Below, piece after piece: positions 7,001 through 45,848 of a DNA stretch of 45,848 nucleotides. The position numbers and the translations under genes were made by a program. The notes under the pieces were generated by a model. That model was given only the letters and a program-made list of their open reading frames with translations. It was not told the origin of the DNA and searched no databases. The stretch is from IMG/VR virus record IMGVR_UViG_3300045922_000565, positions 1-45,848 of that record. The stretch is one strand, 5' to 3'. Within the stretch, counting starts at the first letter, position 1, and the number at the start of each line of letters is the position of its first letter. This stretch comes from a virus.

Positions 7001-7322
7001 TTTGTGCAGCTTCCTCTGGAATATTTTTTTCAGAATCGTTATTAAAAAACAAATTTTCCGCATCCCTAATTGAATGATTGAAAGGGCGCTGTCCATGATC
7101 GTTTCCAGCAAGATAGGCGTATAGCTCTCTTCCCGATAAAGGTTTACCTCTTTCATTCAATATATTATGAAGTTTAGCCCCACCCCAAGCCTCCATGACA
7201 CGCCTATCTACTGGAGCTTTTTTCTTGATTTTTAAATTACGATTAGCTTCGAGAGTGTCACCCTCTAATTTAGGATGTTCTTGTTTAAATAAATTTTTAA
7301 GTACACTTTTTGATCTCATCAT
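4008..7322 (-). CDS. Giant polyvalent-type protein with ELQSD domain (1104 aa)
   Basis: 1104 residues, rich in His, Asp and Lys. Residues about 770-930 hold a domain frequent in phage and mobile-element polyvalent proteins: IAWARVDF, ISELQSD (825-831), then a helix NLLNAVLKAAKKHGAEKVYT, the counterpart of the E(I/L)QSD domain. Its biochemical function is not established. Residues about 190-310 contain degenerate helical repeats (NPNLEEKHVLMAAENYPEHI), faintly like the LRV repeats at 42-45 kb. A long acidic, Tyr/Asp/His-rich middle has no recognised fold. ATGA overlap with the 391-residue gene upstream indicates co-translation. It is probably an internal or accessory virion protein made with the head genes; this rests on position and domain company only. 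Confidence 0.75.
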   Translation of the reverse strand: MMRSKSVLKNLFKQEHPKLEGDTLEANRNLKIKKKAPVDRRVMEAWGGAKLHNILNERGKPLSGRELYAYLAGNDHGQRPFNHSIRDAENLFFNNDSEKNIPEEAAQIALDHANKLFRNTKAPRSRRRRAGEIIKTLLQYAKLPSSTYDKILSSKDNPYNAKYTAQDSEGKEVEFTPNIENYVLSNPNLEEKHVLMAAENYPEHIEKILKSKSPAINSERFLNHILSRDHIFEKIPQYALFGIARWHSEGLTPTSAKKIIEHPDFKNYITHHEQLDKILDKLSPEDRKSYIDSKLGITGGEAYDPEKTGDENWDNWRVGKGYDAKVAKLISRSKHLDDSHVEHIKRHGDFDQKYDMYHKNKNIDPRHAVEMFEKWKNDDDHHGYSTDELNEKNKEEFNIYTHEDLPEEVKQEIIEEGYDNGAIDEHASAIFPYEDYLNTLNDDDILTIMGSKYDDIDEIHENLAKEYNWKVDNPNSKQNIGKADFDSLDKLAQKYDRSRAIDLDEFEEITGYRHPSEIGLPELYDKKADYIDMEKVYDKLDEYGGPSQIDYANHPTLTITDHPDYDDRFEEAANDWRLKHWKDNRYDIADENHLYENYHEHPDYEQAMEEARKSYLEENAEDHVAELYENSHQDPDFVPEHVRPHIPNFADLANFKIKKIKDSGEGKFLDKYIPKREYEHSYGENQHHYELAKDYADAKGGSIDIGTLHKIFPNQKDIWKKMFGDKGRLSSEEIQKKIDEIPKTKYDITYKKWGQDQMQNTNKQDEVVFRLDHSDDSIKALQKNPELYNTFQKIQELSQRSGHPTNKNTIAWARVDFTNPKKPMISELQSDYGKTVREYLKQNGRESEAKHIAEIEKIHSNWRENLLNAVLKAAKKHGAEKVYTHSPESKANHTGSDTIHTVYHDSYRKVPRNMGFKPVEMEEMPLTEYGKRYFVVGKEETPEEREKKHEQAIKHHLEHYSAFSQNPAFKGASDYHLNMAKNHYNIWRSIGNKNTIELDTPENIKNISHVFGAKNLSLPKDNVESAPVPHKYDELLGKPLEQPKKLQGHVYDLNPIDLKKSIELATTLIKAEILYVKKHLKNQDVIKDTVNISLIKKMLGYDNL

Positions 7323-38804: not shown

Positions 38805-38954
38805 CTATTGCCTCCTTAAAGCAAAATAAAGACTGCCCAAAAATATGGCAGTGGTTAAATACAGGATAACAGGATAATTAGAAAAAACCCATGCGAGCAT
38901 AATCAAAAAACATATACTAGAAACCAAAGTTAATAAAGCTGATATAAAAGCCAT
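38805..38954 (-). CDS. Small membrane protein (49 aa)
   Basis: Begins at the TAATG overlap with the nucleotidyltransferase-like gene. Two transmembrane helices: ISALLTLVSSICFLIMLAWV and VILYLTTAIFLGSLYFALRR. The basic C-terminus suggests a cytoplasmic end. Unrecognised, but hairpin membrane proteins of this kind are common phage small products. Confidence 0.6.
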   Translation of the reverse strand: MAFISALLTLVSSICFLIMLAWVFSNYPVILYLTTAIFLGSLYFALRRQ

Positions 38955-39586
38955 TAATCAACTCCAAAGAATCTAACGCTGCCATTAGGGTAGAATTGTA
39001 GGGTATTTTCAGAGGGGTTGTTAAGGTCTATCCCGTTTAAAGATTTGGCTATTTCTAGCAATGTACCATTACATGCTACATAACCTCTCTGGATGTATTT
39101 TTGCATACGCTCCAATGTGGACAAAGGAAATGTTATCTTGTTGATTCGTAAGTGCCTGCTTAATGTATCTTGGAAAAATGTTGTGCTAGCGTCAAATTCA
39201 ACCCCACCGACTTTTAAACCCTCTTCTGTCACGCTTACGTTCGTGAAAACAACAGCTTGGCAAATTGTAAAGTCGAAAGACTCAATTAGTTCCTGCGGCA
39301 TCGTAAAGTGTCTGCCTTTGATAACCTGAAACCAACGCTCTTTATAGGTATAGTTGGCAATCTGATCGTTTTCGTTTATAAGCTTGCCTTTTTCCTTAAA
39401 AAACTTGATTAGCTCATCCTCCGACTGCTTGTTAGTGGTGAACATGTCGATATCCTTGATCTCTGCGTTGGACAAATAGTCTCTGATGGCACCCCCAGCG
39501 ATAAAGACATTGGGACGAAGAGTTTCGGGAAGTTCCTCAAGGATAAGTTTTTGATAGTGATATTTAAGTTTGTCAACGTTTTTCAT
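38954..39586 (-). CDS. Nucleotidyltransferase-like protein (tRNA NTase head-type fold)
   Basis: The ATG at 39586 follows GGAG by four bases; the upstream in-frame start lies in the promoter -10. FIAGGAIRDYLSNAEIKDID, with GG-x-x-RD (31-36) and D45-I-D47, is the nucleotidyltransferase head-domain signature of CCA-adding/polyA polymerases. SFDFTICQAVVF (about 110-120) supplies a further acidic residue and matches phage relatives. At 210 residues it has only the head and part of the neck, so it lacks the tail of true CCA enzymes. It may add nucleotides to RNA, or to a toxin-type target; no tRNA genes are visible in the window. Confidence 0.75.
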   Translation of the reverse strand: MKNVDKLKYHYQKLILEELPETLRPNVFIAGGAIRDYLSNAEIKDIDMFTTNKQSEDELIKFFKEKGKLINENDQIANYTYKERWFQVIKGRHFTMPQELIESFDFTICQAVVFTNVSVTEEGLKVGGVEFDASTTFFQDTLSRHLRINKITFPLSTLERMQKYIQRGYVACNGTLLEIAKSLNGIDLNNPSENTLQFYPNGSVRFFGVD

Positions 39587-39603: not shown

Positions 39604-39632
39604 CTTTTATCATGAATACTAAATCGTGTCAA
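39604..39632 (-). promoter_or_regulatory. Promoter for the nucleotidyltransferase-like operon
   Basis: Minus strand TTGACA (39632-39627), 17-base spacer, TAAAAG preceded by TGA (extended -10). It lies 18 bases upstream of the chosen ATG. Confidence 0.65.
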
Positions 39633-39637
39633 CACCA

Positions 39638-39648
39638 TGGTATATATT
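39638..39648 (+). promoter_or_regulatory. Extended -10 box TGGTATATATT
   Basis: TGG followed by TATATATT, on the plus strand, divergent from and just upstream of the minus promoter at 39604-39632. No clear -35 is present. It precedes two hairpins and a terminator with no ORF between them. Confidence 0.4.
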
Positions 39649-39654
39649 ATTGTG

Positions 39655-39730
39655 ACAATACCCTGCCTCCTTTGGGTATTTTCGCTTCTACCCCCCCCTA
39701 AAGGCCCCTTAATTGGGGCTTTTCTTTTTT
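39655..39730 (+). ncRNA. Possible small RNA: two hairpins ending in a terminator
   Basis: AATACCC-TGCCTCCTTT-GGGTATT (39657-39680) is a hairpin whose loop holds CCTCCTT, identical to the anti-SD of 16S rRNA. A C-rich linker follows, then AAAGGCCCC with GGGGCTTTT (39700-39723) and a T-run. No ORF lies between the TGGTATATATT box and the terminator, so a transcript of about 80 bases is possible. Alternatively this is just a terminator cluster for read-through. Confidence 0.35.
39700..39730 (+). terminator. Rho-independent terminator
   Basis: Stem GCCCC/GGGGC extended by AAAG and TTTT, six-base loop, then TTTCTTTTTT. It isolates the block on the left from the TGGTATATT promoter at 39741. Confidence 0.75.
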
Positions 39731-39740
39731 TCTAAAACCG

Positions 39741-39749
39741 TGGTATATT
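39741..39749 (+). promoter_or_regulatory. Extended -10 box TGGTATATT
   Basis: TGGTATATT, 45 bases before the ATG of the 80-residue gene and immediately after the terminator. Identical to the box at 24261-24269. Confidence 0.5.
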
Positions 39750-39793
39750 GAAATATAAATGAGTTGCAATTAAAAACACACTGGAATAGACAA

Positions 39794-40036
39794 ATGACAT
39801 TTACACTTTATAAATGGCGAAATAAAAAGAATGAGTCTGAATTTAACAGCCCTGTCCTTTATTTAAGGAATGGGGTTGCAGTTGAGTTTTGGGGGTTTGG
39901 GTTTGAGTTTTCTTTTAACAAACTACACATTACCTTGTCTTTGTTCTCGCCCAACGCTATGTATGAAGCACAGTTTATTTTTAACAAAAAATATAACACA
40001 TTTAAAGATAATATTTTGTTTGAGAAAACTTGGTAA
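39794..40036 (+). CDS. Hypothetical protein (80 aa)
   Basis: The ATG at 39794 is chosen; an in-frame TTG ten codons earlier lacks an SD. Predicted beta protein: MTFTLYKWRNKKNESEFN, VLYLRNGVAVEFWGFGFEFS and KLHITLSLFSPNAMYEAQF. No family is recognised. It is the first gene after the promoter at 39741. Confidence 0.6.
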   Translation: MTFTLYKWRNKKNESEFNSPVLYLRNGVAVEFWGFGFEFSFNKLHITLSLFSPNAMYEAQFIFNKKYNTFKDNILFEKTW

Positions 40037-40043
40037 ATATAAA

Positions 40044-40245
40044 CACACCCTTATTTCTATCCCGAGTGTTAGGATGTAGGGTTGGAAAGGCGACCGATAG
40101 CCGAAATGTTTCTAGAGCATTAAGTCGGTGACAGTTGTGGAGAGACACATTACTTACCTGTAGCTATATGCTACTGGTGTTCCTTAGGTGCTCTGGCTTG
40201 CGGGACGGAGTTAAATGGCTCAGATAAGAGCAGCAGCCTATTTAT
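40044..40245 (+). ncRNA. Possibly structured non-coding region before the 123-residue gene
   Basis: No open frame above 30 codons. Inverted repeats visible by eye: ACCGA (40093) with TCGGT (40125); TGTG with CACA (40136-40149); a strong hairpin ACCTGTAGC-TATAT-GCTACTGGT (40156-40178) with one T-T mismatch; TGCTCT (40189) with AGAGCA (40227); and GCTC-AGATAA-GAGC (40218-40231). This nested arrangement with GC content above its neighbours suggests an RNA element, either independent or a 5' leader. It does not match any riboswitch, tmRNA or tRNA signature I can recognise, and no T-arm is present. Confidence 0.4.
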
Positions 40246-40266
40246 TTTTATAAGGGGCCACACAAA

Positions 40267-40638
40267 ATGAAAAAAACATACGAAATCATTGTTGATGACG
40301 CATACTTCAATGAGCCAGAAGACTACCTCAAATACCTAATGTGTGAAAATCTAATTGTTGTAAACAATGGCTGGTGGAACAAGGAATGGCCTAAAGATAA
40401 AATAACACTCTCCGTTATATGCAACGACGTTTTTGCTTGGGGGTGTTCGGATGCTGAGGACATAAATTATTCTGATTTAGAACCTTTAGCCAAAGCTCAC
40501 CTCAAAGACCCCACTTGGGGCGTAGTTGCTTGGTGCATTAAAAAAAGAAAACAAATGCCTCAAAAACCAATTGTTGTCAAAATGACAGAAGCAGGCTATA
40601 ATCTAGAAGAGTTAATTGGCGAAGAAGGGGGAGGGTAA
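40267..40638 (+). CDS. Conserved phage hypothetical protein (123 aa)
   Basis: SD AAGGGG, 11 bases upstream. The protein has an acidic N-terminus (YEIIVDDAYFNEPEDYLKYL), a Trp-rich core (VVNNGWWNKEWPKDKITLSV, then FAWGCSDAEDINYSDLEPLA), and VVAWCIKKRKQMPQKPIVVK near the end. Such Trp-rich small proteins are common in large phages without known function. It is the first gene after the possible structured RNA. Confidence 0.7.
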   Translation: MKKTYEIIVDDAYFNEPEDYLKYLMCENLIVVNNGWWNKEWPKDKITLSVICNDVFAWGCSDAEDINYSDLEPLAKAHLKDPTWGVVAWCIKKRKQMPQKPIVVKMTEAGYNLEELIGEEGGG

Positions 40639-40639
40639 A

Positions 40640-40942
40640 ATGAAAAATAAACAAAACCACAAAATTTCTCTTTTAGAGCTGGTAACTGGCACAGTGATTA
40701 TTGCTGCTAAATATATTAGAGATTTGTTATCTGTTTTAGGAGCGTGTTACGTGCTTCCACTTATTATATGTCGTCTTGCCTACTATTTTGGCTTTTTGCC
40801 ATTTATTAATGATGCGGATTTTTTTAAAGCTGTATCCGTTACCCCACTCCTTAACATTGGAGGGGCTGTGTACATAGTTGTTGCAGCCATTTTAGCATTG
40901 CCATTTGTAGTTATAGAGTGGTTGGTAAATTTAATTTATTGA
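40640..40942 (+). CDS. Small multi-span membrane protein (100 aa)
   Basis: The ATG at 40640 follows GGGAGGG; the longer in-frame start upstream lies inside the previous gene. Three hydrophobic segments: LELVTGTVIIAAKYIRDLLS, VLPLIICRLAYYFGFLPF, and AVYIVVAAILALPFVVIEWL. A basic N-terminus suggests an inside orientation. No family is recognised. It is coupled with the next membrane gene, possibly a pair acting at the host envelope. Confidence 0.7.
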   Translation: MKNKQNHKISLLELVTGTVIIAAKYIRDLLSVLGACYVLPLIICRLAYYFGFLPFINDADFFKAVSVTPLLNIGGAVYIVVAAILALPFVVIEWLVNLIY

Positions 40943-40966: not shown

Positions 40967-41140
40967 ATGACAAGTAAGAAAATGCTCGGATCTCTATTAC
41001 TACTGACGGTATTTGTGATTGTATTTCTTTATTTGATATGGTTGCGTGGAATTTGGATCGCTCTAGGTTGCGCTGGTGTCACAATTCTGACCACCGATCT
41101 TATTATGATTGCAATTGATATGTTGACGGAGAAAAAGTGA
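40967..41140 (+). CDS. Small membrane protein (57 aa)
   Basis: The ATG at 40967 lies 10 bases after AGGAG; an in-frame TTG six codons earlier is less likely. Two transmembrane helices: MLGSLLLLTVFVIVFLYLIW and IALGCAGVTILTTDLIMIAI. The stop overlaps the GTG of the next gene. Unrecognised. Confidence 0.65.
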   Translation: MTSKKMLGSLLLLTVFVIVFLYLIWLRGIWIALGCAGVTILTTDLIMIAIDMLTEKK

Positions 41141-41349
41141 TTCAAAATACTTATAAAAGAATCGTAAAAGACGGTAAATTTTGTATTGAATATTTTGAAA
41201 CGCATATCGGTAAGAGTAGGATTATTTTTGAATCCAAAAGTGAGATAGAGACGATGCGTAGATATAAGAGATTGAAGGAGCTGGAAGAGTACGAAAATAG
41301 TTTGTGGGATGAGTTTTTTGTAAAACAAGAGGAAAATGAAGAATGGTAA
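41137..41349 (+). CDS. Hypothetical protein with GTG start (70 aa)
   Basis: GTG overlaps the previous stop (GTGA), with a GGAG SD. Basic beta start (IQNTYKRIVKDGKFCIEYFE), then a charged helix (EIETMRRYKRLKELEEYENS). No family is recognised; likely a small cytosolic protein. A GTG start is otherwise rare in this window. Confidence 0.6.
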   Translation: MIQNTYKRIVKDGKFCIEYFETHIGKSRIIFESKSEIETMRRYKRLKELEEYENSLWDEFFVKQEENEEW

Positions 41350-41417
41350 AATTTATAGTGAATTATATATCAAGCGACGATAGAATAAAAGAGCCGACTT
41401 GAAACAAGGAGAACAAA

Positions 41418-41582
41418 ATGAGTGAAGTGCTTTATTCCCCCAAACACAATGAGATTTTTATATTCACAGGATGCTTTAGCTACGACGATAAAAAGAAAAC
41501 CATGACTTTGTATGTTTTCTCGGGCAAAAAAGGTTATGCCACTATTAAGGCTAAAGACCTCGTTCATATAGGATGGCTATAA
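41418..41582 (+). CDS. Small hypothetical protein (54 aa)
   Basis: SD AAGGAG seven bases before the ATG. MSEVLYSPKHNEIFIFTG, then YDDKKKTMTLYVFSGKKGYA and a C-terminal VHIGWL: a compact beta protein. It overlaps the 121-residue gene by ten bases, so it was missed by length cut-offs but is supported by SD and packing. Unrecognised. Confidence 0.6.
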   Translation: MSEVLYSPKHNEIFIFTGCFSYDDKKKTMTLYVFSGKKGYATIKAKDLVHIGWL

Positions 41583-41938
41583 GCCAGACAAAAGAACAAA
41601 CGATTGACGATTGGGATAGCATGGAAACACCAGACAAGTGGGTAATTTTAAAATTAAACAGCAACGGCAAAACCCTCTTTAAGGTACTGGCTGGGTGGTC
41701 GGGTTCTTATTTAAAGGGGCAGAGCTGGAGGATTAATAGCGGGATTGTTAAGGTAGAGTCTAACGACGACCACTATTTGTTTTATGGTCATTCTGGCTCT
41801 GTTTACAAATGCAGAAAAACATGTTATGGTATGAATGCGATTATGTCAAGCATTGCAGCTAATTTTGAAGGCAATCCTGACATAAAGATCATGGCTGAAC
41901 AAGATTTCAGTAATTTGATGGGGGCGGTAGATGGGTAA
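41573..41938 (+). CDS. Conserved phage hypothetical protein (121 aa)
   Basis: The ATG lies inside the end of the 54-residue gene. DDWDSMETPDKWVILKLNSN, then KTLFKVLAGWSGSYLKGQSW and YLFYGHSGSVYKCRKTCYGM give a beta-barrel-like core. Similar small proteins are common in large phages, function unknown. Ends by overlapping the ATG of the LRV-repeat protein at 41931. Confidence 0.7.
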   Translation: MAISQTKEQTIDDWDSMETPDKWVILKLNSNGKTLFKVLAGWSGSYLKGQSWRINSGIVKVESNDDHYLFYGHSGSVYKCRKTCYGMNAIMSSIAANFEGNPDIKIMAEQDFSNLMGAVDG

Positions 41939-42779
41939 AGATAACGGCTATTCTGATAGCAAAACAGACTCACAAGGCTCTAGGATCAAAGAGCTTGAAA
42001 CGGAAAATCAACAGCTTAAGCAAATTATTAAGGAAACATTGCCGTTAGCTAGAGAATACGCTCACAAGAGATCCACATTTGCACCTACAATCGTTAATGA
42101 AGCCATTGATAAAGCATTAAAGCTTGGTGTAAATTTATGGAATGGACTGGCTCCCAAGTACGCTGATGACGGTGACTTTGGCAAATGGAACCCAATCGTT
42201 GGAAAGTTCGTGGAAAAAAAATGGGTTGAAAATCAACCTGTCGATGTCCGCATAGATATGGCTTCTAATCCTAACCTTGATCCAAAACTCCAAGAAACGC
42301 TGGTTGGAGATAAGAATTGGCGTGTTCGTGAAGCGATAGCTTATAACCCTAACCTTGATCCTAAATACTTTGAAAGATTGGTTGGGGATAAAAAGAGCAA
42401 TGTTCGTGTAGCAATAGCCTCTAACCCAAACCTAGACCCAAAACTTCACGAAAGATTAGTTGGAGATAAGGATTGGGGTGTTCGTATATCAATTGCCCGT
42501 GCCCTTAACCTTGACCCAAAATTCTATGAGAGATTGGTTAGAGATAAGGATTGGGGTGTTCGTAGAACAATAGCCTCTAACCCAAACCTTGACCCTAAAT
42601 ATTACGAAAGGTTGGTTGGGGATGAGAATTGGGGTGTTCGCGCAGGAATAGCTTCTAACCCTAACCTTGATCCTAAATACTTTGAAATATTGCTTAAAGA
42701 TAGTGATCCAGCCGTTCGTATAACAATAAAAAAGAATCCTAGTTATATTAAATTTGCCAATTTAAAAAATAAAGGTTAG
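41931..42779 (+). CDS. LRV/HEAT-like repeat protein with coiled-coil N-terminus (282 aa)
   Basis: Residues 20-36 form a short coiled coil (IKELETENQQLKQIIKETL), with a helical linker to residue 112. Residues 113-268 are six exact-length 26-residue repeats, consensus NPNLDPKxxERLVGDxxWxV followed by RxAIAS, then a cap NPSYIK. The pattern resembles the leucine-rich-repeat-variant (LRV) family, an alpha-superhelix of protein-protein interaction type, though LRV units are typically 24 residues. The same repeats recur in the genes at 42804 and 45233. Partner unknown. Confidence 0.8.
   Translation: MGKDNGYSDSKTDSQGSRIKELETENQQLKQIIKETLPLAREYAHKRSTFAPTIVNEAIDKALKLGVNLWNGLAPKYADDGDFGKWNPIVGKFVEKKWVENQPVDVRIDMASNPNLDPKLQETLVGDKNWRVREAIAYNPNLDPKYFERLVGDKKSNVRVAIASNPNLDPKLHERLVGDKDWGVRISIARALNLDPKFYERLVRDKDWGVRRTIASNPNLDPKYYERLVGDENWGVRAGIASNPNLDPKYFEILLKDSDPAVRITIKKNPSYIKFANLKNKG
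42267..42734 (+). repeat. 78-bp LRV-coding tandem repeats (6 units)
   Basis: Six in-frame 78-base units with high nucleotide similarity, for example around the AACCCNAACCTTGA segment that opens each unit. The array could recombine with the similar arrays at 43605-44384 and 45341-45496. Confidence 0.8.
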
Positions 42780-42803
42780 AATTAGAAACATATATTAAAT
42801 TTT

Positions 42804-44636
42804 ATGGTAAATTTAACTAAAAAACATCAAGAACACATTAATTGGGCCAAAAAACTTCCTAACTCTAATTGGCAACTTTGGGCAACAAGACACTTTAAAA
42901 ATAAACCAGAAGATTTTACACCAGAAATAAAACAAAAAATTGAACATTATGCTGGAAGTTTTCATATCCCAGAAATTTCAAAGGTTCGTTTTGAAAAACA
43001 TCATAATTTGCATTTTGGCCTCCAAATGCTTGAAAATGCTGAAAAACAGTACAACGATAGAATAAAAAATAACTTAAATATTTTAAAACCTACTCCCGAA
43101 ACCATTAAGTTCGTACAAGGAGTCGAAAAACCAAATAGACATTGGTTTAACTTAAGTAAAAGTTCTTGTGTGGACGAAGGAAAAGCGATGGGACATTGCG
43201 GAAATGTTCCTTTAAAAGTTAAAGGGGATGAAATATTGTCTTTTAGAACTGAACATAAAATTGGGGATAAAACCTATCATGAACCTCACCTAACATTTAT
43301 TTATAATCAAGGTTTTCTTGGTGAAATGAAAGGTAGAGGAAATGAAAAACCAGCCAAACATTATCACCGTGAAATCGCTAACTTATTAAAAGATCCTAGG
43401 ATTAAGGGTGTGATGGGCGGAGGATACGAACACAAAAATAATTTTCATTTCACTGATTTATCTCCAGAATTACAACAGGAGGTTTTAAAAGCAAATCCAA
43501 ACCTAATTACTATGGATGACAGTGATGAGGATTTGCATAGAATTTTGTATGGAAATGTTATTTTTCCAGAAAAATATAAAGATATTTTAAAAGCAATTGC
43601 TTTTAATCCAAATTTAGATCCAAAACATCATGAAAGATTGGTTGAAGATAGTAGAGTGTATGTTCGTGAAGCAATAGCCTCTAACTCCAATCTTGACCCG
43701 AAATTCTATGAAAGATTGGTTAATGATAAACACTGGGCTGTTCGTATAGCAATTGCTCGTAACCCAAATTTAGACCCAAAACATTATGAAAGGTTGGTTG
43801 ATGATAAGGATTCGGATGTTCGTAAAACAATAGCTTCTAACCCCAACCTTGATCCAGAATTCCATGAAAGATTGGTTAATGATGAAGTTTGGAATGTTCG
43901 CGCAGCAACAGCTCTTAACCCCAACCTTAACCCCAAATTCCATGAAAGATTGGTTGAGGATAAAGAGGATAGTGTTCGTCAAGCAATAGCTTCTAACTCA
44001 AACTTAGACCCAAAACTCCAAGAAAAATTAGTTGGGGATGAAAATAAATATGTTCGAGCAATAATGGCTCTTAACTCAAACTTAGACCCAAAATTCCATG
44101 AAAGATTGGTTGAAGATAAAAAGGAAAATGTTCGTGCAGCAATAGCTTCTAACCCAAATCTGGATCTAAAATTTCATGAAAGGTTGGTTAATGATGAGGA
44201 TTGGAATGTTCGCACAGCAATAGCTTTTAACCCCAACATTGATCCAAAATTATATGAAAGGTTGATTGAGGATGGTGATTGGAGTATTCGTTCAGCAATA
44301 GCCTCTAACCCTAACCTTGATCCTAAATACTTTGAAAGATTGCTTAAAGATAGCGAGCCAATTGTTCGCCAAGAGATAAAAAATAATCCTAGTTATATTA
44401 AATGGAAAAAGGAGTGGAAAATGACTAAAGAAGAATTTGCAGAAAAGGTTTTAAAAAGTCCAAAAAATACTGTTTTTGTTAATACAGATCAGGTGTTGAA
44501 TGCTATTGAGGTTTTTACTGATCTTGGCATGCTACCCCCTTTGACTAGAGCTTTGCCTGAAGATTTCTCAAATACAGGGTTTGACCAAGATTTTTTAGAT
44601 GAACATGAGTTTCAAGTTAATAGGTGGGAGGAATAA
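42804..44636 (+). CDS. GHCGN-domain (PcfJ-like) plus 10 LRV repeats (610 aa)
   Basis: Residues 1-267 contain a domain with HWFNLSKSSCVDEGKAMGHC, then GN (129-134), ILSFRTEHK, HEPHLTFIYNQGFLGEMKGR and GNEKPAKHYH. The His-Cys pair followed by strand, Glu/Gln and a GxxN end recalls the PcfJ-like module of phages and plasmids, whose role is unknown. Residues 268-527 are ten 26-residue LRV repeats with the NPSYIK cap, and a helical C-terminus (MTKEEFAEKVLKSPKNTVFV) follows. No SD precedes the ATG, in very AT-rich DNA. A catalytic domain tethered to an LRV scaffold is likely, by inference. Confidence 0.75.
   Translation: MVNLTKKHQEHINWAKKLPNSNWQLWATRHFKNKPEDFTPEIKQKIEHYAGSFHIPEISKVRFEKHHNLHFGLQMLENAEKQYNDRIKNNLNILKPTPETIKFVQGVEKPNRHWFNLSKSSCVDEGKAMGHCGNVPLKVKGDEILSFRTEHKIGDKTYHEPHLTFIYNQGFLGEMKGRGNEKPAKHYHREIANLLKDPRIKGVMGGGYEHKNNFHFTDLSPELQQEVLKANPNLITMDDSDEDLHRILYGNVIFPEKYKDILKAIAFNPNLDPKHHERLVEDSRVYVREAIASNSNLDPKFYERLVNDKHWAVRIAIARNPNLDPKHYERLVDDKDSDVRKTIASNPNLDPEFHERLVNDEVWNVRAATALNPNLNPKFHERLVEDKEDSVRQAIASNSNLDPKLQEKLVGDENKYVRAIMALNSNLDPKFHERLVEDKKENVRAAIASNPNLDLKFHERLVNDEDWNVRTAIAFNPNIDPKLYERLIEDGDWSIRSAIASNPNLDPKYFERLLKDSEPIVRQEIKNNPSYIKWKKEWKMTKEEFAEKVLKSPKNTVFVNTDQVLNAIEVFTDLGMLPPLTRALPEDFSNTGFDQDFLDEHEFQVNRWEE
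43605..44384 (+). repeat. 78-bp LRV-coding tandem repeats (10 units)
   Basis: Ten in-frame 78-base units, more divergent at the start of the array than at the end. The last unit plus the following cap is nearly identical to the end of the 45233 gene, which shows recent copying between these loci. Confidence 0.8.
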
Positions 44637-44989
44637 TGAAATATTACGATAAAACCAAAAGAAAGCCCACGGCTTTAGTCGTGGGAGCTGTCAGGAAATT
44701 GTTCTTTGCAAAACTATGGGAATTTATTTTTGGGTATGATCATCGAAGATGGTTCCCAGAGAAATGGGACTTATCTGAAGTTTTTATTTGGAAAGAATAT
44801 GGTAAAAACGAAGGATTCGTGAGATATTATAAAAGCTCAGACAGATATTTAAAATTTGTCAACGGTGTTGACATTAAATTTTACGAAAATACTTTTAAAG
44901 TAAAATATATCGTCGGATATACTAGGACTGGAATCTGTAGTATCGGGGTTAATAAAAATAGATTAATGGGACTCGTACATGACAAATAA
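44636..44989 (+). CDS. Hypothetical protein carrying an IS605-like hairpin in its 5' end (117 aa)
   Basis: The ATG at 44636 is in a TAATG overlap with the LRV gene, with a GGGAGG SD. Codons 5-17 are provided by the 40-base hairpin repeat (44648-44687). The rest (RKLFFAKLWEFIFGYDHRRW, then YYKSSDRYLKFVNGVDIKFY) is unrecognised and basic/aromatic. The hairpin insertion keeps the frame open here, while in the second copy it introduces a stop. The protein may be a domesticated or disrupted gene. Confidence 0.6.
   Translation: MKYYDKTKRKPTALVVGAVRKLFFAKLWEFIFGYDHRRWFPEKWDLSEVFIWKEYGKNEGFVRYYKSSDRYLKFVNGVDIKFYENTFKVKYIVGYTRTGICSIGVNKNRLMGLVHDK
44648..44687 (+). repeat. Exact 40-base repeat with IS200/IS605-like hairpin (copy 1)
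   Basis: CCCACGGC-TTTA-GTCGTGGG (44666-44685): eight-pair stem with one G-T wobble and a TTTA loop, preceded by AAAACCAAAAGAAAG. Hairpins of this form mark the ends of IS200/IS605-family elements, where they are bound by TnpA and overlap the omega-RNA scaffold. No tnpA or tnpB is present. Confidence 0.7.
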
Positions 44990-45128
44990 AAAGTTAATTA
45001 TAAACTCCTTTTCGGAATGTCCTCATTTTGATAATGAATATTGGCATTATAGTCAAATATGTGAAAAGTTAAATAAAGAAAACAAGCAATATCTTAAGAT
45101 AAAACCAAAAGAAAGCCCACGGCTTTAG
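44979..45128 (+). CDS. Small protein ending in the hairpin repeat (49 aa)
   Basis: ATG inside the end of the preceding gene with GGGA upstream. MTNKKLIINSFSECPHFDNE, then YWHYSQICEKLNKENKQY, and finally IKPKESPRL read from the second hairpin copy, whose TAG in the loop region gives the stop. The natural gene end may have been replaced by the hairpin insertion. No family is recognised. Confidence 0.45.
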   Translation: MTNKKLIINSFSECPHFDNEYWHYSQICEKLNKENKQYLKIKPKESPRL

Positions 45129-45137
45129 TCGTGGGAG
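45098..45137 (+). repeat. Exact 40-base repeat with IS200/IS605-like hairpin (copy 2)
   Basis: Identical over 40 bases to 44648-44687, including hairpin and flanks; the sequences diverge just outside. Its 3' arm includes GTGGGAG, which could act as SD for the ATG at 45145. Confidence 0.7.
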
Positions 45138-45138
45138 T

Positions 45139-45255
45139 ATGTCAATGATTTGTTTTGAGATTGACTTAAACGGGGAACGGTTGTATAAAAGAATAAAGAT
45201 TGAAAACCCAAATACAAAAGTGGAGATTGTTAATGAAACCATACGCAAGTCTTAA
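45139..45255 (+). CDS. Small protein after the hairpin (38 aa)
   Basis: Two possible starts (45139 or, with better SD spacing from the hairpin GGGAG, 45145). Sequence MSMICFEIDLNGERLYKRIK, then IENPNTKVEIVNETIRKS. Its 3' end overlaps the start of the chimeric gene at 45233. Weakly supported; might be the remnant of a larger gene. Confidence 0.4.
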   Translation: MSMICFEIDLNGERLYKRIKIENPNTKVEIVNETIRKS

Positions 45256-45288
45256 CATTGAAACAGCAGGCCTAAATTCAAAATCACA
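45233..45288 (+). repeat. Partial duplication of the exonuclease 5' end
   Basis: 50 of 56 bases identical to 45578-45633. Divergence begins directly after CAAAATCACA, at a short stretch (CCAAAA) also present in the LRV units, suggesting a microhomology junction. Confidence 0.85.
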
Positions 45289-45541
45289 TGAAAGGTTGGT
45301 TAATGATGAGTCATGGCATGTTCGTAAAGCAATAGCCTCTAACCCCAATCTTGACCCGAAATTCTATGAAAGGTTGGTTGGGGATGAGGATTTGGATGTT
45401 CGTAAAGAAATAGCCTCTAACCCTAACCTAGACCCTAAATACTTTGAAAGATTGCTTGAAGATAGCGAGCCAATTGTGCATAGAGCAATAAAAAATAACC
45501 CTAGTTATATTAAATGGAAAGAGGGGCAGAAAAATAACTAA
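45233..45541 (+). CDS. Chimeric gene: duplicated exonuclease 5' end fused to LRV repeats (102 aa)
   Basis: ATG with GTGGAG SD. Residues 1-18, MKPYASLNIETAGLNSKS, copy the start of the exonuclease at 45578 (MKPYVSLDIETTGLNPKS); the first 56 bases match at 50 of 56 positions. After the shared K-S position the sequence switches to HERLVNDESWHVRKAIAS and two full LRV units plus the NPSYIK cap, nearly identical to the end of the 610-residue gene. The exonuclease DxE is NIE here, so the copied part is catalytically dead. A longer in-frame start at 45200 lacks an SD. Whether the product is functional is unknown. Confidence 0.75.
   Translation: MKPYASLNIETAGLNSKSHERLVNDESWHVRKAIASNPNLDPKFYERLVGDEDLDVRKEIASNPNLDPKYFERLLEDSEPIVHRAIKNNPSYIKWKEGQKNN
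45341..45496 (+). repeat. 78-bp LRV-coding repeats (2 units) in the chimeric gene
   Basis: Two complete 78-base units plus a partial one before them, closest to the last units of the array at 43605-44384. Confidence 0.8.
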
Positions 45542-45577
45542 GGCTTTGCCTAAATACATTTTATCAGGAGAAATTTG

Positions 45578-45848
45578 ATGAAACCTTACGTAAGTCTTGA
45601 CATTGAAACAACAGGCCTAAACCCAAAATCACAAATACTTCAGATTGCTATGGTCTATGATGACCTTAAAACGCCAATCGATCAGCTACCAACATTTAAC
45701 AAAAAGATTTTTTACGAATCATTCTCACATGCCGAACCATACGCTCTCATGATGAATGCTAAATTGATTCAGGAAATGTCAAAGGGTTACGGTAAGCTCG
45801 GAGACGATTGGATTCATAGCGAATATGCAATTGGCTATGTTATTGATT
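45578..45848 (+). CDS. DnaQ-like 3'-5' exonuclease, N-terminal part (cut by window end)
   Basis: ATG with AGGAG SD. SLDIETTGLNPKSQILQIAM is motif Exo I (D-x-E) of the DEDD exonuclease superfamily, with catalytic Asp and Glu. The following segment (PTFNKKIFYESFSHAEPYAL, then MMNAKLIQEM) resembles phage and oligoribonuclease-type DEDD relatives. It would trim DNA or RNA 3' ends; the later Exo II and III motifs lie outside the window. It is the intact parent of the duplicated fragment at 45233. Confidence 0.8.
   Translation, partial: MKPYVSLDIETTGLNPKSQILQIAMVYDDLKTPIDQLPTFNKKIFYESFSHAEPYALMMNAKLIQEMSKGYGKLGDDWIHSEYAIGYVID

Follow-up and report, generated by a model that had tools for sequence, protein, structure and literature searches.

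A GC-rich, ORF-free gap ahead of a small phage gene folds at chance level and may be an ordinary lineage-specific leader or spacer

Results

A GC-rich gap without a plausible gene

The window analysed here is the whole of a 45,848-base IMG/VR virus record. On its + strand, a same-strand intergenic gap (40037–40266, 230 nt, GC 0.44) separates an upstream ORF, which ends at 40036, from the following one, which starts at 40267. A first-pass annotation had singled out 40044–40245 as about 200 bases with no ORF, and this was borne out. The gap is real, largely ORF-free and without a plausible gene, its longest internal ATG frame having 19 codons. That frame (40168–40227, including the stop) is also open in the second copy described below, with one amino-acid change, and has no SD-like sequence ahead of it. 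The small gene that follows the gap (40267–40638, + strand) belongs to a widespread phage family with the motif ICNDVFAW and had no PHROG or Pfam match. Its ATG at 40267 is preceded by the SD-like sequence TAAGGGG (40251–40257, + strand).

The GC content of the gap exceeds that of the adjoining genes and of the phage (0.38). Its core (40055–40243, + strand, GC 0.47) was richer in GC than ~95% of 189-nt stretches in the phage contigs. Among ORF-free gaps 60 nt or longer in the window, G003, G004 and G005 (one listed G005 gap duplicates a window gap), it ranked highest, the others spanning 0.24–0.39; the next highest (39614–39763, 0.39) contains a terminator-like hairpin. The gap is also long, at 230 nt against a median of 8 nt for same-strand gaps in the window, a value that depends on a crude codon-usage gene caller (the caller fails on the GC-rich relatives G001 and G010, whose gap lists were ignored). 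Both properties count against a plain spacer, which would be expected to be AT-rich, and GC enrichment is the sole clear departure from an ordinary spacer. A GC-rich non-coding island in an AT-rich genome is a composition signal for finding RNA genes, and here it favours a structured RNA; the excess over the genes on either side also favours a gene remnant or a foreign insert.

Known RNA families and transcription signals

The first-pass annotation recognised no RNA family in the region and proposed an Infernal/Rfam search, which agreed with it. Rfam 15 (4227 models) gave no match in the window at the gathering threshold, and none to the region alone even at E ≤ 10, for either copy, and a known RNA family was rejected on this basis. 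ARAGORN found no tRNA or tmRNA in the window, and four other settings returned nothing for 450-nt pieces of both copies. Its pseudogene setting (-ps70) gave six low-scoring candidates across the two 450-nt pieces, three for each; among the matches listed, which are those of the G003 piece, two touch an edge of the region and none lies inside. A tRNA array or degenerate tRNA, prompted by D-arm-like pieces, was thus unsupported by ARAGORN or Rfam.

A scan of 39950–40300 reported no + strand promoter-like site and no terminator-like site, which may count against a separate RNA and for a leader. A weak promoter-like pair, TTGTTT-16-TATAAA (40016–40043, + strand), was recovered by a pattern search below the scanner's threshold; a transcript launched from it would begin close to the 5' end of the region, and we give it little weight. 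The pattern listing also placed the promoter-like motif TGGTATAT twice upstream (39638 and 39741) and TGGTAAAT at 40031. Further upstream, a + strand terminator-like hairpin (39700–39723, nine pairs, T-rich tail) is flanked by divergent genes. No + strand gene immediately precedes it, and it may terminate a short + strand transcript that begins near TGGTATAT at 39638. An Rfam suhB/mmgR match over 39658–39736 was sub-threshold (19.6 bits, gathering threshold 41).

The region was found in one other contig

One other copy was found, in contig IMGVR_UViG_3300044941_000368 (G003), which was reached via the protein of the downstream gene. G003 is 98.3% identical to the window over 6.9 kb, and the region itself is 94.9% identical over 234 columns. 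A DNA search of annotated phages and plasmids returned short chance matches alone (E 7–10), and 21 virus records searched for the region held no copy; a 15-base match in G016 was rejected as chance, sitting by eye in an apparent DNA polymerase gene. Four sequence patterns were then scanned in viral contigs. The first spans an inter-copy difference and returned no stretch at all, G003 included; the other three found G003, and 17/18, 4/5 and 1/2 of their stretches did not extend past the pattern. The same was true of all seven stretches from a scan of genome contigs.

A two-sequence profile run over ten contigs gave no further copy (the listing covered rows other than G001–G004, at E of 1e-6 or below). 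The covariance model R1, searched over 858,475 bases in 55 sources with duplicates and pattern-match loci left out, matched the window and G003 only, a third match (E 1.6) being noise. R1 also had no match in 21 virus records, in a run without a positive control, where an empty result carries no weight. By profile and R1 searches the region is absent from distant phage relatives, whose capsid protein is 54–67% identical. Among the sequences searched, the region is probably confined to one phage lineage. This lack of copies beyond G003 tells against a structured RNA.

Folding does not exceed chance

The first-pass annotation had pointed to a strong nine-position hairpin and several mutually compatible inverted repeats. 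The hairpin is present at 40156–40178 (+ strand), as ACC-U-GUAGC/GCUAC-U-GGU with one U-U mismatch, and no 36-nt window holds a more stable one; its strength is that of chance, −11.6 kcal/mol compared with a shuffle mean of −11.9 and matched by 152/300 shuffles. In G003, the best 36-nt hairpin was equalled by 117/300. A smaller hairpin with a GAGAGA loop occupies 40134–40151 (+ strand). Inverted repeats are likewise present, among them the single perfect 7-base repeat (CCCTTAT at 40048–40054, ATAAGGG at 40250–40256, + strand), which connects both region ends, but their numbers are those expected by chance (1/4/21 perfect repeats of 7/6/5 bases observed, 0.97/4.6/18.9 expected) and the fold depends on where the sequence is cut.

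The predicted fold of 40044–40266 (−63.3 kcal/mol) had a z score of −0.64, with 53 of 200 dinucleotide shuffles equally stable. Scores were similar for the minus strand (−0.46), the G003 copy (−0.87) and the region extended by 64 nt into the downstream gene (−0.75). Stability above dinucleotide shuffles was therefore not seen in the window copy, in the G003 copy or with the downstream gene. With those 64 nt a different fold was preferred, and the enclosing helix (40048–40054/40250–40256) fell to a probability of 0.00.

The structure is no better than chance by every energy or repeat count, which weakens the case for a structured RNA. A failed stability test does not exclude a non-coding RNA, since secondary structure by itself generally gives too little signal for detecting such RNAs (PMC3150283). 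Chance-level folding only removes the reason that the earlier annotation had for suspecting one.

Divergence between the two copies

Across 228 aligned sites of the gap, 10 substitutions and a 2-nt deletion separate the two copies. In the eight neighbouring ORFs, 10/830 third positions and 4/268 fourfold sites differ. Divergence of the gap was greater than that of third positions overall (Fisher test, p 0.004), and could not be distinguished from that of fourfold sites (p 0.06) or of third positions in the two ORFs just downstream (7/226, p 0.62). The two-copy comparison gives no sign of purifying selection on the gap, and such fast change argues against a structured RNA. The substitutions are unevenly placed, with only one of the ten in the last 86 nt, a point in favour of such an RNA.

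The substitutions within the adjacent hairpins at 40134–40151 and 40156–40178 (helices 5 and 6) all pair in G003 (5/5), two of the sites being mismatches in the window copy. Both differences in the smaller hairpin improve pairing in G003; all three stem differences in the nine-position hairpin pair there, and its loop is 2 nt shorter. No pair changed on both sides between the two copies, and the structure was drawn from the same two sequences, so that these counts lean towards structure. We also set the copies against 1,000 random mutants in which changes of these kinds had been introduced. Their base-pair overlap was better than that of 95.9% of mutants in one measure (0.041) and of 80.4% in a second (0.196), and their stability was unremarkable (22–24% of mutants equally stable). 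Together, the pairing-compatible changes and the base-pair overlap may be taken as a weak hint of structure. They speak for a structured RNA and against a plain spacer, in the case of the overlap by one measure and not by the other.

Differences between the window and G003 cluster in 40030–40791 and are lacking from the ORFs of 40968–41930, as in mosaic genomes, a pattern that favours a remnant or an insert. Two observations from the same comparison are recorded here. A cluster of five substitutions (40735–40742) lies inside a coding stretch beside an inverted repeat (40739–40757). Exactly 127 bases (38944–39070) of the window recur where G003 starts and where G004 ends, and resemble an assembly-graph k-mer; left of them the window and G004 differ, and the point looks like a junction between two mosaic strains within one phage group.

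Homologues of the downstream gene lack the region

We examined the family of the downstream gene at 30 viral loci, that of G003 and 29 further ones, among which five pairs look like duplicates. R1 matched one of the 30 loci, that of G003, and none of the 29 further loci. At 24 of these 29, an upstream ORF ends no more than 40 nt from the assumed start; four have 93–196 nt upstream, possibly through wrongly assumed starts, and one was not assessable. The negative R1 search and the close upstream ORFs together mean that the gene family occurs elsewhere without the region. That the homologues mostly lie directly behind other ORFs also fits a remnant or an insert.

The first-pass annotation had raised a riboregulator, and the position of the SD-like TAAGG at 40251, within the 3' arm of the enclosing repeat, suggested sequestration of the ribosome-binding site. 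An SD-sequestering helix was rejected, the pairing being lost (probability 0.00) when the downstream gene is included and start accessibility being ordinary. The 16 bases before the start had a mean predicted unpaired probability of 0.45, compared with 0.47 in 38 other genes, of which 17 were lower. The riboregulator version is weakened by the leaderless homologues and by this modelled accessibility.

Other features of the window

Many imperfect internal repeats lie at 42200–45600, in and around the ORFs at 41931–42779, 42804–44636 and 45200–45541, the first two of which match PHROG 20647. A 66%-identical relative occurs in G005, beyond the window's left end. A minus-strand gene at 7319–8494 matches the S-adenosylmethionine lyase family of Pfam (32.6 bits, cut-off 28); phage SAM lyases counter restriction.

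Discussion

We consider an ordinary lineage-specific untranslated leader or spacer the most likely of three readings of the gap, a judgement only a little firmer than an even one. The gap would probably be transcribed within a + strand operon and form the 5' leader of the small gene starting at 40267, to which it would supply the ribosome-binding site TAAGG, and no further, structure-dependent function would be expected of it. Its hairpins would be a chance product of composition, and its divergence that of nearby synonymous sites or greater. Chance-level structure in both copies, the lack of an Rfam match, fast divergence, leaderless homologues, ordinary start accessibility and the missing promoter-like and terminator-like sites all point this way. 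If the gap is only a leader, it illustrates that an RNA gene cannot be argued from hairpins visible in some 200 bases unless controls are run.

A lineage-specific structured RNA, either non-coding or a 5' leader of ~210 nt (40047–40257), would carry short hairpins and act in trans or regulate the following genes. We regard it as somewhat unlikely. The GC-rich island, the paired substitutions and shortened loop in helices 5 and 6, the better of the overlap measures and the quiet last 86 nt are set against folding no better than shuffles, the absence of two-sided changes and rapid divergence. The fuller proposal is more doubtful still, namely a new ~210-nt structured phage RNA of one uncultured-phage lineage, whose hairpins would drift under a pairing constraint and which would regulate the operon or act in trans on the host. 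Should the gap encode an RNA, this would be an orphan non-coding RNA of phages, invisible to current libraries because just two near-identical copies were found.

Improbable, and the least favoured of the three, is the reading that the gap is what remains of a decayed gene or of foreign DNA where the genome recombines; its high GC, missing relatives and rapid divergence would then be accounted for. A decayed gene was rejected on the 14 stop-free pieces of both copies, which had no convincing protein match among the loci searched (best E 0.11; the target set omitted seven loci containing the region). A mobile element was also rejected, with one copy per genome, only short chance DNA matches in phage and plasmid records, no target-site repeat demonstrated and no empty site found for comparison.

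Three known systems come closest to the gap. Like the large structured phage RNAs GOLLD and ROOL, the gap is a non-coding stretch in a phage genome; unlike them, it is far shorter, has no Rfam match, and had no conservation or above-chance stability in our analyses. The gap resembles cis-regulatory leaders of the riboswitch-like, SD-sequestering kind in its inverted repeat, which, for the region on its own, is predicted to pair the region's start with the SD-like sequence, but here the pairing is lost in folds that extend into the downstream gene, the leader is absent from the gene family elsewhere and Rfam offers no match. With the untranslated 5' leaders of phage operon genes the gap shares a non-coding position just before a small gene of a same-strand series and an SD-like sequence at its end; at 230 nt it exceeds the other ORF-free gaps of this phage in both length and GC.
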